From a bacterium (GTDB lineage Bacteria > Cyanobacteriota > Vampirovibrionia > Gastranaerophilales > Gastranaerophilaceae): a DNA stretch of 42,236 nt. Position 1 is the first letter of the stretch. Each line of letters begins with the position of its first letter. The position numbers were made by a program, and so were the translations under genes. Shown in pieces: positions 5,822-41,343 of this stretch. The notes under the pieces are model-generated. The model did not search any database. It saw only the letters and a program-made list of their open reading frames with translations, and was not told where the DNA came from. The stretch is from NCBI GenBank assembly GCA_017629215.1, contig JAGBXP010000038.1:1-42236 (forward strand), given 5' to 3'.

Positions 5822-5850
5822 ATCATATATTTTTTAAGTTTTTTTTGAAA
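5822..5850 (-). promoter_or_regulatory. Possible promoter of the STAS-like gene (leaderless)
   Basis: On the minus strand TATGAT (5827-5822) ends 6 nt before the ATG at 5815, and no Shine-Dalgarno is seen. A weak TTTCAA-like -35 lies about 17 bp further upstream. Same geometry as the stronger leaderless candidates in this window. Confidence 0.35.
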
Positions 5851-9053: not shown

Positions 9054-9095
9054 AGTCGGTTGAGATTAAAAATCTCAGCCGACTATATTTTTCAA
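9054..9095. terminator. Bidirectional terminator between convergent genes
   Basis: AGTCGGTTGAGATT (9054-9067) pairs with AATCTCAGCCGACT (9071-9084), 14 bp with one G-T pair, and has T-rich sequence on both sides. It can close both the 8420 gene and nadK. The stretch 9100-9240 beside it shows nothing else recognisable. Confidence 0.75.
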
Positions 9096-9240
9096 TTTAA
9101 TATTATTACGGAGTTTCATCCAGCCTACAAGCCTTCAAGGTTTTCATCGGAGAGGGTGGCATTTAATATATCGCTTACTCTCGTAAAGACGAAAGACAAG
9201 CTCTGTTGTAAAGCCCTATAATAATATAAAAACCATATTT

Positions 9241-10023
9241 TTACTTAGCTTCAGAAATTCCCCAATGAAGCTTATCTCTTAATATAGAATAATAATTTCT
9301 ACTGTTTAAAAATGCTAAAACAGCTTTTTTATCGCTTGATTTGATAGTTATTTTATCAACACATTTTTCGGTATCATATCCGTCAATTGAAACTGATAAT
9401 AATTTATCGGCAGTTTTAATAGAAATTACTTCTGTTGAAGGTACTACTAAAGGTCTAGCATTTAATGTATGTGGACAAATAGGAACAATTACAATGGCAT
9501 CCATTGTCGGGTAAACAACTGGACCTCCAGCTGATAGACCATAAGCTGTAGAACCTGTTGGAGTCGATACAATTAGTCCATCTGCTATATAATCGCAAAC
9601 TTCTTTATTATTTATTTCAAGATAAAATTTTGAAGTCCTTGATGAAATACATCCTTTTATAACAAAATCATTCAAAGCAATTCTATCAATTGAGGTTAGC
9701 ATTAATCGGTTTTCTGTGTAAAAATTGTTATTTATTATTGATTCAATAATAAAATTAATTTCTTCATCATCACTTTGAGATAAAAAACCTAAACGTCCTG
9801 AGTTTATTCCAAGGACAGGGATTTGCCATTCAGAATAATATCTTGCTGTCCTTAGTAATGTTCCATCGCCACCAATTACAATCGTAAAATCTCCAAAATT
9901 TGCGAGTTTACTAAGCTCAAAGCTTTTAAAGTCAATTTTTTTAGATATTAAAAGTTTTTCTATCTTAGATAATATATCTTCGTAGTTTTCAATATGTTTA
10001 TTATATACAACATTAATTTTCAT
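9241..10023 (-). CDS. nadK: NAD kinase
   Basis: Phosphorylates NAD to NADP; cytosolic. Short bacterial form (260 aa) with GGDGT (51-55, catalytic Asp53), NSGRLGFL (74-81) and the NAD-binding segment TPTGSTAYGLSAGGP. All family landmarks are present. No Shine-Dalgarno precedes the ATG; instead an extended -10 box ends 7 nt before it, so the mRNA is probably leaderless. It diverges from the BFN-dapL pair across a 62-bp spacer. Confidence 0.96.
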   Translation of the reverse strand: MKINVVYNKHIENYEDILSKIEKLLISKKIDFKSFELSKLANFGDFTIVIGGDGTLLRTARYYSEWQIPVLGINSGRLGFLSQSDDEEINFIIESIINNNFYTENRLMLTSIDRIALNDFVIKGCISSRTSKFYLEINNKEVCDYIADGLIVSTPTGSTAYGLSAGGPVVYPTMDAIVIVPICPHTLNARPLVVPSTEVISIKTADKLLSVSIDGYDTEKCVDKITIKSSDKKAVLAFLNSRNYYSILRDKLHWGISEAK

Positions 10024-10030
10024 ATAGCTG

Positions 10031-10060
10031 ATTATATCATGTAAACTGATTTTGTGTTAA
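10031..10060 (-). promoter_or_regulatory. nadK promoter (extended -10, leaderless)
   Basis: On the minus strand: TTAACA (10060-10055), 18 bp, then TATAAT (10036-10031) preceded by TGA to make the extended -10 TGATATAAT. The gap to ATG 10023 is 7 nt, so transcription should begin at or next to the A of the start codon. Confidence 0.75.
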
Positions 10061-10085
10061 TATTAATAAATAGAGAGGTGTTATT

Positions 10086-10595
10086 ATGATAGAAATGAAA
10101 GTAATGGGTATAGCACTTGATGTGAGAACAAACTCGCCTATTGTTGTACTTCACGATTTAGATAATAGAAAAGCTTTACCAATTTGGATAGGTTCAGCAG
10201 AAGCAAGTGCTATTATTCGTTGTATAGAAGGACTTGTTGTTGCTCGTCCTATGACACACGATTTAGTAACTAATATCATTGATAAAACAGGGTATAAATT
10301 AGAAAAAATCGAGATTAATGATGTAGAAAAAGAAACTTATTTTGCAACATTATATCTTGTTAAAGATGACGAGACCTTAGAAATAGATGCTCGTCCTTCT
10401 GATGCAATTGCTATAGCAATGAGAGCAAAAGCTCCAATCTTTGTTACGTCGAATGTTTTATTAAATGGTTCTGTCTCAACTGACACAGCAAAGGATGAAG
10501 AAGAAGCACAAGAATTTAAAGATTTCATACAAAATATTAAACCTTCAGATTTCGAAAAATTAATGGAAGGTAAACACGAGGAAACAGATCAATAA
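10086..10595 (+). CDS. Bifunctional nuclease (BFN/DUF151) family protein
   Basis: A 169-aa protein with the BFN domain over about residues 1-135: IALDVRTNSPIVVLHDLDNRKALPIWIGSAEASAI at the start and LEIDARPSDAIAIAMRAKAPIFV later, both highly characteristic. Plant members have been reported with RNase and DNase activity; the bacterial role is poorly defined. The C-terminus is acidic and helical. AGAGGTG is 7 nt before the ATG. dapL starts 17 bp downstream, so the two are likely co-transcribed. Confidence 0.88.
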   Translation: MIEMKVMGIALDVRTNSPIVVLHDLDNRKALPIWIGSAEASAIIRCIEGLVVARPMTHDLVTNIIDKTGYKLEKIEINDVEKETYFATLYLVKDDETLEIDARPSDAIAIAMRAKAPIFVTSNVLLNGSVSTDTAKDEEEAQEFKDFIQNIKPSDFEKLMEGKHEETDQ

Positions 10596-13991: not shown

Positions 13992-14022
13992 TTGTTACAA
14001 AATTTTACTTTTATGCTAAAAT
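13992..14022 (+). promoter_or_regulatory. der promoter (extended -10, leaderless)
   Basis: TTGTTA (13992-13997), 19 bp, TAAAAT (14017-14022) preceded by TGC (extended -10). ATG 14030 starts 7 nt after the -10, and no Shine-Dalgarno exists. Confidence 0.7.
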
Positions 14023-22252: not shown

Positions 22253-22282
22253 TTGCTCAAATTATAAGTTTTTTGCTATTAT
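22253..22282 (+). promoter_or_regulatory. Promoter of the histidine-kinase operon (leaderless)
   Basis: TTGCTC (22253-22258), 18 bp, TATTAT (22277-22282) with TGC before it. ATG 22289 begins 6 nt after the -10. AGGG at 22283-22286 is too close to the ATG to act as Shine-Dalgarno. Confidence 0.7.
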
Positions 22283-34942: not shown

Positions 34943-34971
34943 ATTTTACATCAAAATTTATATCTAATCAA
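34943..34971 (-). promoter_or_regulatory. Promoter of the GH38 gene (leaderless)
   Basis: On the minus strand TTGATT (34971-34966), 17 bp, TAAAAT (34948-34943), then 7 nt to ATG 34935; no Shine-Dalgarno. Confidence 0.65.
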
Positions 34972-37356: not shown

Positions 37357-38931
37357 ATGGCTAATAATTCTCATGGTAATAAAAACGAAGTAGAAATATC
37401 AAACTATCTTAATGAGAAAAAGTTTTGTGAATTAAATTTGTGTATGAAAGAATTTATAAAATATATTTGCAAAAATAAGGAAATATTATTTAATGACGAT
37501 ACTATTATTTATTCAAGTTATGAAAAAAATAATAAATTAAAACAAGATATATATATAAATATTAATAATGTTATAATCAATGTTAGTTTGAAAATGGGTT
37601 CTGGTAATTCATTACATCAAGAAAAAATTGAAGATTTTATATTATTTATAAAAAAAGAATTAAAGGCTTCTGAAGAAATTTGTAATATGTGGCGATTTTT
37701 TATATGGGCAGACGGAACTCTAAATGGAACAGGTCCTTTGGATAAAAATACAAAAGGAGAAATTATTTGTCGTTTTGGTTCAAAAGAATATCAAAAAAAA
37801 TATGCGCAAGATCGTGTCATTTTACAAAATTTTATAAATGAAAATAAAATTGCATTAATAGAAAGAGCTTTGTTCATTGGGAAATGTGAAAATAGTAATG
37901 TAGATTTTGTATACCACGGAACATATAAAGAAGGGTGTTGGATTTCTAAGCAAGAAGTTATTAATTTTCAGTTGGAAAATGAAACGAAGTCTAAAAATAC
38001 TTGTTTTAGACTTGGTAAATTAACCATTCAAGCTTGGAATGTTTCTTTAAAAGGAAAAACCGAACGAAAAAGAGGACAAATTCAATTTAAATATGGATCT
38101 ATGAAAGATGATTTTAACAAATTAATGCAACAAAATATTAATCGTATCGGAACTTTTGTAGGTGATATTGAGGAATTTGAATTAAGTCATTGTTTGAACA
38201 AAAATAAAAAAAATCAAATGTGGAAAGTTATTTTGCCAAATATTGATGATTTCACAAATTATTATTTAGTAAAAGTATCGTCAAACCAATTTTCACGTTT
38301 GAGTGAAAAAAAGGTTAAAACTAAGAGTGATGCCTATGTAATAAAAGCAAATCTTCCTAAAGATTTATTATTAAGTCGTGAATATGTAATTGAGGAATCG
38401 GATTTAAATGATTACGATTATGAAGTTCAAGCAAATTCTGGAATTTCTATTAAACTTAAATCTTCTCAAAATTATACTTATCAAAAATTTACAAAAAATT
38501 CTTTTTATAAAGCTTTTGCGTTTATTCCAGATATTAATTTTTGGTTTGCATCTTTATTAATTTATAGTTCTAAAGATGAAATTTATAAAAATCATAAAAT
38601 CCTTTCTGATATAGGCTTTTCTTTTGAAACTTTTTCAAATTATGTTGAAAAATATATGCAAATAACATTCAAATCAGCTGATATACAAAATAGTTCTTAT
38701 TGGGAAAGTATCAGAAAAAAGGCTCAAGAAAAGATAAAAGAAGAAATACAAAAGAATATCGAGCTGTCGGAAAGTATATTTATGGGAAAGCATTGGTTCG
38801 AAGCTCAGTATCAAGCATTATTCATATATGAAAAAGGTATATTAAGAAAAAATACAATAATGGATTTTTCTATAACTACAGGTTCTGGTAGAAGTAAAGG
38901 AAAATATTCAATAGAAATAAAGCCAAATTGA
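37357..38931 (+). CDS. Probable type II restriction endonuclease (PD-(D/E)XK-like)
   Basis: 524 aa, soluble. A PD-(D/E)XK-like core is visible: Asp64 (KQDIYI), then 12 residues on Ser77-Leu-Lys79 (VSLK) followed by GSGNSLHQE; SxK replaces the usual ExK. Residues 100-524 match nothing I know and should hold DNA recognition and perhaps further catalytic parts. AGGTGA lies before ATG 37357, right behind a 38-bp palindrome. It converges on two m5C methyltransferase genes with 8 bp between stops, which supports a nuclease role. The codon and base composition do not obviously differ from the neighbours. Confidence 0.65.
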   Translation: MANNSHGNKNEVEISNYLNEKKFCELNLCMKEFIKYICKNKEILFNDDTIIYSSYEKNNKLKQDIYININNVIINVSLKMGSGNSLHQEKIEDFILFIKKELKASEEICNMWRFFIWADGTLNGTGPLDKNTKGEIICRFGSKEYQKKYAQDRVILQNFINENKIALIERALFIGKCENSNVDFVYHGTYKEGCWISKQEVINFQLENETKSKNTCFRLGKLTIQAWNVSLKGKTERKRGQIQFKYGSMKDDFNKLMQQNINRIGTFVGDIEEFELSHCLNKNKKNQMWKVILPNIDDFTNYYLVKVSSNQFSRLSEKKVKTKSDAYVIKANLPKDLLLSREYVIEESDLNDYDYEVQANSGISIKLKSSQNYTYQKFTKNSFYKAFAFIPDINFWFASLLIYSSKDEIYKNHKILSDIGFSFETFSNYVEKYMQITFKSADIQNSSYWESIRKKAQEKIKEEIQKNIELSESIFMGKHWFEAQYQALFIYEKGILRKNTIMDFSITTGSGRSKGKYSIEIKPN

Positions 38932-38947
38932 TTTATATTTCAATTTG
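38924..38947. terminator. Hairpin formed by two convergent TGA stops
   Basis: CAAATTGA (38924-38931) / TCAATTTG (38940-38947), 8-nt loop. The TGA ending the nuclease gene and the TGA ending the methyltransferase gene sit symmetrically in the two arms. Weak stem without a clear T-run. Confidence 0.45.
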
Positions 38948-39914
38948 TTTCTTTTGTCAAAATATTTATAATTTCTTTGGCTATATCCGTTATTATCGGT
39001 ACAATAACACTATTTCCAATTTGTTTATAGCTTTGATGATGATTGTTTTGTATTTTATAAGAATCAGGATATCCCATTATTCTCAAGCATTCTCTTTCTG
39101 TGAGTTTCCTTTTTTCTGAGACAATTATTGGAATATTGTTACCACCAGTTCCCATTTTAGCAGTTAAACAAGGTGAAATACCATCACACCTAAATCCACA
39201 TCTTGATTTACGCACTTCATTTGCTATCAAAATATGTTCGCTATTATATCTCTGGCTTTCATAAAATTTATTTATATATTGTTCTATATTATATTTACAA
39301 GTATCAGTTATTGAATATTTTAAATCAACATTTTTTTCAAATAATGATTCTATTTCGTATTTTAATTTTCTTTTTTTAGGAAATAAATTTTCGCAATTTT
39401 TATCTATATTTGGGAATGTTTTTTTATTAAATGCAACACAATACCAGCGAGATCTATTTTGAGGATAACCAACATCTTTTGCGTTTATAATTTTAAAAAA
39501 TGGGATATATCCAATTTCTTTTAAACAATCAAGAATGGTTTTCATTGTTTTACCATTATCGTGGTTTGATAATCCTGCTACATTTTCAAGAAAAATAATT
39601 TTTGGTTGTTTTTCTTTGGTAATGCGTAGTACTTCAAAAAATAAAGTTCCTCGAGTATCTTCAAAGCCTTGTCTTTTTCCTCCAATGCTAAATGGTTGGC
39701 ATGGAAAACCCGCACATAAAATATCATGATTGGGGATGTCTTTTTCGTTAATTTTTGTTATATCACCAAAAGGAAGTTCTCCGAAATTCAATTCGTATGT
39801 TTTTTGCACATATTTATCATTGTCAGAACTAAAAACACACTCACAACCCAGGCTTTCAAATGCTATTCTAAAACCTCCAAGACCACAGAATAAATCTATA
39901 AACTTGAAATTCAT
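38940..39914 (-). CDS. DNA (cytosine-5-)-methyltransferase, copy 2
   Basis: 324 aa with the ordered m5C motifs: I DLFCGLGGF (7-15), IV AGFPCQPFS with catalytic Cys72, VI ENV (110-112), VIII QNRSR (152-156), a variable target-recognition region (about 165-265), IX/X RECLRIMGYPDSY and KQIGNSVIVPI. Starts 3 bp after the stop of the first methyltransferase, so it is co-transcribed. The two enzymes differ most in the recognition region, suggesting different targets or strands. Confidence 0.96.
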   Translation of the reverse strand: MNFKFIDLFCGLGGFRIAFESLGCECVFSSDNDKYVQKTYELNFGELPFGDITKINEKDIPNHDILCAGFPCQPFSIGGKRQGFEDTRGTLFFEVLRITKEKQPKIIFLENVAGLSNHDNGKTMKTILDCLKEIGYIPFFKIINAKDVGYPQNRSRWYCVAFNKKTFPNIDKNCENLFPKKRKLKYEIESLFEKNVDLKYSITDTCKYNIEQYINKFYESQRYNSEHILIANEVRKSRCGFRCDGISPCLTAKMGTGGNNIPIIVSEKRKLTERECLRIMGYPDSYKIQNNHHQSYKQIGNSVIVPIITDIAKEIINILTKETN

Positions 39915-39917
39915 TGC

Positions 39918-40973
39918 TTAATTATCCTCCATATAACTAATAAAATGGTTAATAATTGCAGTAATTACAGGAGGACTAACAGCATTACCTGCTTGTTTAT
40001 ATTGCTGTGTCATGCTTACTGTTCTTGAAATATTATCAATAAAAAAGTCATTAAAACCTTGTAATTTAAAGTTTTCTTTAGGTGTTAATTTTCTAATATA
40101 TTTTTCGGGAGTGCTTATATATATTTTAGCAGTATCAGATCTTGCAAGAATTGTCGGTGATATGCCATAAATTGAATAGACTCTTCGTTGACGTTCCATA
40201 TCGTTCCATACATTTCTTGGTAAATCAAAAAGTTTAACAATTTTATTAACACAAGTTTTATTCTCTTTAAAACAATTCATTTTTAAAAATTCTTTAACAT
40301 TTTTATTATTAATCAAATATCTTTCATTTTTTGTTTCCTCTAAAATATCCTTAATATATTTTTGAGGATTGTGAAATTCTAATGAATTAAAAAAATTAAA
40401 TCCATTATATTCAAAAGAAGATTTTAATTTGTTTATTTTATTATTTCTTTTTTCGATTTTTTCTTTGTTATTTTTACCACCTAGTATTCCAACAATATAG
40501 GTTCTTTCTCTGTTTTGTGGTAATCCAGCTTCTAATGAATTAATTATTGAAAAATCTATGGTATAACCTAAGTCATTTAATGTCTTAATAATCGTCTTAA
40601 AAGTATTTCCATTATCATGTGAGACAAGATTTTTGACATTTTCTAATAGAAAATATTTTGGCTGTTTTTCTTTTAAAATTCTTGCTACCTCAAAGAACAA
40701 AGTTCCTCGAATATCATTAAATCCCCTTTGTTTACCTGCAATACTAAAAGCTTGACAAGGGAAGCCTGCTACAAGTAAGTCGTGATCGGGGATCTCTGTT
40801 TCAGGAATTTTTGTAATATCACCATATAAATTTTTTTCTCCAAAATTTACAATGTATGAAGCTCTGGCATGAATATCTATTTCTGACGCAAAAACAATTT
40901 TTGCATCCAAATTAGATTCTTTTATGCCAACTTCAAATCCTCCTATCCCAGCAAAGAGGGATGCTACTTCCAT
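39918..40973 (-). CDS. DNA (cytosine-5-)-methyltransferase, copy 1
   Basis: 351 aa: motif I LFAGIGGFE (6-14), IV AGFPCQAFS with catalytic Cys73, VI ENV (111-113), VIII QNRER (153-157), recognition region about 165-290, then LQGFNDFFI and KQAGNAVSPP (motif X). It follows the AbrB-like gene by 2 bp with GGGGGCAT-type sequence before its start. First methyltransferase of a tandem pair that protects DNA against the convergent nuclease candidate. Confidence 0.96.
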   Translation of the reverse strand: MEVASLFAGIGGFEVGIKESNLDAKIVFASEIDIHARASYIVNFGEKNLYGDITKIPETEIPDHDLLVAGFPCQAFSIAGKQRGFNDIRGTLFFEVARILKEKQPKYFLLENVKNLVSHDNGNTFKTIIKTLNDLGYTIDFSIINSLEAGLPQNRERTYIVGILGGKNNKEKIEKRNNKINKLKSSFEYNGFNFFNSLEFHNPQKYIKDILEETKNERYLINNKNVKEFLKMNCFKENKTCVNKIVKLFDLPRNVWNDMERQRRVYSIYGISPTILARSDTAKIYISTPEKYIRKLTPKENFKLQGFNDFFIDNISRTVSMTQQYKQAGNAVSPPVITAIINHFISYMEDN

Positions 40974-41315: not shown

Positions 41316-41343
41316 TTGCTAAACCATAATTTTGACTTATAAT
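41316..41343 (+). promoter_or_regulatory. Promoter of the mlaE-like gene (leaderless)
   Basis: TTGCTA (41316-41321), 16 bp, TATAAT (41338-41343), then 6 nt to ATG 41350. AAGAGG at 41306-41311 is too far away to act on this start. Confidence 0.7.

Follow-up and report, generated by a model that had tools for sequence, protein, structure and literature searches.

Leaderless mRNAs are translated from initiation by the 70S ribosome together with initiator tRNA. Leaderless genes with a -10 box adjacent to the start codon are known in Deinococcus-Thermus, Actinobacteria and other groups (PMC3160421, PMC12340547, PMC3898074), and the survey of Zheng (2011) detected such genes in 207 of the 953 bacterial genomes it covered, Cyanobacteria being absent from its list (PMC3160421). 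For Synechocystis, leaderless transcripts, taken as those with a 5' UTR under 9 nt, have been mentioned (PMC8155712). Our literature search found no paper joining leaderless expression with Melainabacteria or with Gastranaerophilales, the non-photosynthetic cyanobacterial relatives from animal guts to which the DNA studied here belongs.

The window, that is, the whole stretch of 42,236 nucleotides that was analysed, is one contig of a 1.8 Mb Gastranaerophilaceae genome in 54 contigs. We consider it highly probable (roughly 0.9) that in this genome housekeeping (sigma-70-type) promoters make the A of the start codon their +1 and so yield leaderless mRNAs, as a minority mode beside genes led by a Shine-Dalgarno (SD) sequence, and that this mode is strongly represented throughout the Gastranaerophilaceae. 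In the proposed mechanism, the -10 hexamer stops 6 or 7 nt short of the ATG, in many cases accompanied by a TGN extension and a weak -35. RNA polymerase would then initiate 7-8 nt beyond the -10, at an A that follows a pyrimidine; as this A is that of the ATG, the mRNA would be leaderless, and the ribosome would initiate on the 5'-terminal AUG without an SD. Where the transcripts really begin, and how they are translated, we infer.

The closest likeness is to Deinococcus-Thermus (PMC3160421, PMC12340547), where a -10 box also lies a few nucleotides before the ATG, the SD is dispensable and SD genes stand alongside. There, however, about 40% of genes are concerned and the box is a loose TANNNT, whereas here, in another phylum, the figure is about 8% and the box is a near-consensus TATAAT, often with TGN. 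In Mycobacterium tuberculosis (Cortes 2013, PMC3898074) leaderless genes are likewise -10-driven, have no strong -35 and carry the transcription start site (TSS) at the start codon, as is predicted here. Its TSSs were mapped experimentally and a quarter of the genes with a primary TSS are leaderless, while ours are predicted from sequence; moreover, 7% of its promoters have an extended -10, as against 20 of the 45 SD-less candidates in the present sample. Since leaderless genes with an adjacent -10 already occur in several phyla, the mechanism itself is not new; what would be new, as far as the literature searched shows, is finding it in the Gastranaerophilales clade.

Six genes of the window (nadK, der, a histidine kinase, GH38, mlaE and a STAS-like gene) had been proposed as leaderless from the letters of the DNA. 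Their start regions, read directly, have the -10/ATG geometry claimed for them, and an independent rule-based scan of the window recovered exactly the same six. For nadK, put forward as the clearest case, the lack of an SD and the -10 box 7 nt before the ATG are both seen in the sequence. At mlaE the correct reference start is the table's ATG, not the TTG upstream, and the STAS-like gene has no Pfam match at 1e-5. The sequence-only reading of these starts as leaderless is supported, as a prediction, by this geometry and by the genome-scale peak, initiator base, promoter positions and conservation described below, all of which agree with what leaderless transcription predicts.

Table 1. Genes, proposed leaderless starts and -10 boxes discussed in the text. 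Positions are those of the window unless a contig is given.
Feature	Position	Strand	Remarks
STAS-like gene, -10 TATGAT	5822..5827	-	6 nt before ATG 5815; weakest box among the six
nadK (NAD kinase), proposed leaderless	9241..10023	-	ATG 10021-10023, predicted +1; Pfam PF01513/PF20143
nadK, extended -10 TGATATAAT	10031..10039	-	Ends 7 nt before ATG; read in the sequence and by pattern match
Divergent nuclease-domain gene, extended -10 TGTTAATAT	10055..10063	+	TGNTANNNT on the strand opposite nadK in 58/59 relatives
Bifunctional-nuclease-domain gene, divergent from nadK	10086..10595	+	Pfam PF02577; SD GAGAGG 10073-10078; leadered contrast to nadK
der, extended -10 TGCTAAAAT (core TAAAAT)	14014..14022	+	7 nt before ATG 14030; identity by Pfam
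Histidine kinase, -10 TATTAT	22277..22282	+	TGC before box; 6 nt before ATG 22289; HisKA/HATPase_c
GH38 gene, -10 TAAAAT	34943..34948	-	7 nt before ATG 34935; PF01074
mlaE, -10 TATAAT	41338..41343	+	6 nt before ATG 41350; PF02405
mutL, candidate leaderless by the same rule	L020:8146-9963		Another contig of the same genome; MutL domains

To place these six genes in context, we scanned a sample of 647 kb that includes the window and covers about 36% (roughly one-third) of the genome. It holds 544 ATG genes of at least 90 codons, whose starts were taken as the first ATG, called without a trained gene finder. A -10 box was scored as TANNNT with at least two of the three middle bases matching the consensus and ending 6 or 7 nt before that first ATG. 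Such a box precedes 50 of the 544 genes, against 9.6 +/- 2.8 expected when upstream columns are permuted among genes and a maximum of 18 across 500 permutations. The gap is sharply set, at 6 nt in 38 genes and 7 nt in 12, compared with 5, 2, 4, 2 and 0 genes at 4, 5, 8, 9 and 10 nt, respectively. Relative to dinucleotide shuffles, TATAAT was found 19 times (2.7 expected), TANAAT 43 times (8.1 expected) and TGNTANNNT 26 times (2.4 expected). The peak that a comparison of ATG-proximal -10 hexamers with shuffled upstream regions was meant to reveal thus holds in the sample. Internal in-frame ATGs of the same sample show no comparable peak at 6-7 nt, and at GTG and TTG starts the peak is absent. 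That the pattern is a compositional coincidence or the product of misplaced start codons has next to no probability in our judgement: A/T hexamers are indeed frequent at 30% GC, but the shuffles, the column permutation, the internal ATGs and the neighbouring gaps contradict it, as does the conservation at nadK and mutL described below. Composition was ruled out as the source of an artefact by these controls, and start-codon misplacement together with them by orthologue alignment.

The candidates make up about 8% of all ATG genes in the sample, nadK and mutL among them, and their messages very probably begin at the start codon, on the strength of the promoter geometry; chance would account for roughly 10 to 20% of the 50. 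They include nadK, der, mlaE, mutL, uvrC, dnaG, dprA, ribD and lptF/G, and further a sigma-70 region 4 protein, the histidine kinase and several TPR proteins, with no single pathway apparent. Leaderless starts had been thought common for the first genes of transcripts. The genome-scale signal behind that view is real, but "common" is only partly right because this is a minority mode: 39 of 317 first-gene-like genes (12%) are candidates, a share that rises to 36 of 112 when only those without an SD are counted, and 22% of the candidates are not first-gene-like.

The initiator base agrees with the proposed +1. In 96% of candidates the ATG directly follows a C or a T, compared with 48% (p = 1e-6) of control genes carrying an AT-only, non--10-like hexamer in that position. 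Among the genome's leadered extended -10 promoters, 17 of 23 have a purine 7 nt past the -10, where +1 is expected; a gap of 6 would therefore make the A of the ATG the +1, and with a gap of 7 that A lies one base further on. In SD genes the -10 boxes lie mostly 14 nt or more upstream, with few at 8-13 nt, and the promoters thus fall into two position classes rather than a smear. An SD is found in 10% of candidates against 72% of genes overall. It should be noted that the position-matched AT-hexamer control is also low (21%, a difference from the candidates that is not significant). The lack of an SD among candidates is largely mechanical: since the -10 occupies the SD position, SD absence is not independent evidence, and we dropped it as such.

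The TATAAT-like boxes might instead be A/U-rich translation enhancers in SD-less leaders and not promoters at all. The genome is AT-rich (30% GC) and SD-less genes exist outside the leaderless set, as such enhancers would suppose; yet the motif is specific, with its TGN extension and TATAAT-like core, its spacing is fixed to +/-1 nt, and the same motif lies farther upstream of SD genes. We regard this explanation as very improbable, and the promoter reading gains further from mutL, where orthologues with an SD have the box farther upstream.

Conservation of the geometry was assessed in orthologues of two genes, nadK and mutL. TGNTATAAT stands before nadK in all 59 distinct upstream regions of Gastranaerophilaceae. 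Its gap to the ATG is 7 nt in 48 of these, 6 nt in 7 and 8 nt in 4, and the -1 base is T in 58 and C in 1, while most bases between box and ATG vary across the 59 regions. The NadK N-terminus aligns from residue 1 with orthologues of the same family, which start at the same place. The neighbours at the nadK loci behave differently: a -10 at 6-7 nt is seen in 0 of 80 nuclease-domain genes and 0 of 57 dapL genes, and an SD is present in 61/80 and 46/57, respectively. Eight loci from other families of the order differ: their nadK encodes a longer N-terminus, and no ATG stands at the corresponding position. The extension in these loci (L063-L070) amounts to some 30 residues, and the short NadK form with a putative leaderless start is found in all Gastranaerophilaceae loci examined.

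The space between nadK and the divergent nuclease-domain gene measures 62 bp and contains two divergent extended -10 promoters (10031-10063). TTAACA had been read as the -35 of nadK. The motif is present (10055-10060, minus strand, 18 nt from TATAAT), but it coincides with the extended -10 of the divergent gene, which is kept in 58 of the 59 regions, and its conservation fits that -10 at least equally well; we have therefore set it aside as a clear -35. The same bases may serve as a -10 on one strand and a weak -35 on the other. Because each -35 region would then lie on the other promoter's -10, nadK and the nuclease-domain gene should compete for polymerase, with a polymerase at one promoter keeping another from the second. 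The two divergent -10s, that of the leaderless candidate nadK and that of the SD-led nuclease-domain gene, lie at a near-fixed distance in most of the 59 relatives. Downstream of nadK, the intergenic stretch 9060-9235 appears by eye less AT-rich than its flanks; it has no ORF of at least 80 aa and no Rfam match at gathering score.

The crowding of this intergenic space bears on a further explanation, in which the promoter next to the ATG exists but contributes little, the main transcript arising from a more distant one, with a leader that lacks an SD. A precedent exists in Clostridium phytofermentans, where 4% of TSSs are concerned and the genes kept an upstream TSS and a ribosome-binding site (RBS; PMC5171806), and 22% of our candidates lie inside possible operons. 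The C. phytofermentans genes keep their RBS, however, whereas 90% of the candidates here are without one, and the 62 bp upstream of nadK are already taken up by two promoters. Selection on the position of +1 is also suggested by the near-invariant spacing and by the pyrimidine at -1. We therefore hold dual promoters to be unlikely as the general explanation, although individual genes may have a second promoter upstream that gives a leadered message, and continue with start-codon initiation as the preferred reading.

At mutL, both start modes occur among orthologues. Counted by eye, 16 of 25 distinct upstream regions have a -10 6-8 nt before the ATG, and all 16 have T at -1; in 8 of 25 a TATAAT-type box lies farther away, at about 15-28 nt, and an SD-like sequence comes after it, and 1 of 25 is unclear. 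The 6-8 nt geometry and the SD-leader form are mutually exclusive. Putatively leaderless and SD-led forms alternate among close relatives (L071-L131), with apparently the same -10 box. The series has the appearance expected if orthologues pass from one kind of start to the other, and would represent recent switches between two initiation modes among close relatives.

The signal is strong throughout the Gastranaerophilaceae and weak in the order's other families, and it was not detected in the sampled photosynthetic cyanobacteria. Most Gastranaerophilaceae genomes contain about 12-50 copies of the pattern TGNTATAAT-N6-ATG, and some (e.g., genus g27) have ~7; a reversed control pattern gave 0-4 per strand. 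Hand-summed over 30 Gastranaerophilaceae genomes, the mean per genome is 21 for N6, 9 for N7 and 4 for the N9 control, compared with 6.4, 5.3 and 2.9 in 16 genomes from other families of the order, counts that between clades are affected by unequal promoter make-up and GC. Five photosynthetic cyanobacteria, a sister lineage in the same GTDB phylum, showed no N6/N7 excess (totals of 27 for N6, 23 for N7 and 21 for N9). In gene-level samples the signal was strong in the window's genome and family members (p from 1e-18 to 6e-5; 0.01 in g27) and weak in families f3, f6 and f7 of the order (p 0.002-0.03, small samples); none was seen in the small samples of f2, f4, the class-level relative f8 and two cyanobacteria.

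We lean towards the view that leaderless initiation has expanded as a Gastranaerophilaceae-specific trait in the cyanobacterial phylum, whose photosynthetic members lack the genome-wide signal, and that mutL orthologues have switched repeatedly by moving one conserved -10 box. If both the expansion and the switching are true, the Gastranaerophilaceae would be a natural laboratory for the evolution of such switches. The findings would also add to the known range of leaderless expression a gut lineage that is abundant but almost uncultured and that stands next to the photosynthetic cyanobacteria, in which a large survey detected none, and gene finders that rely on the SD may misplace starts in these genomes.

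Elsewhere in the window, two adjoining C-5 cytosine DNA methyltransferase genes (38940-40973) lie beside a gene for a 524-aa protein with no Pfam match (37357-38931), and the whole segment 37357-40973 is possibly a restriction-modification unit.
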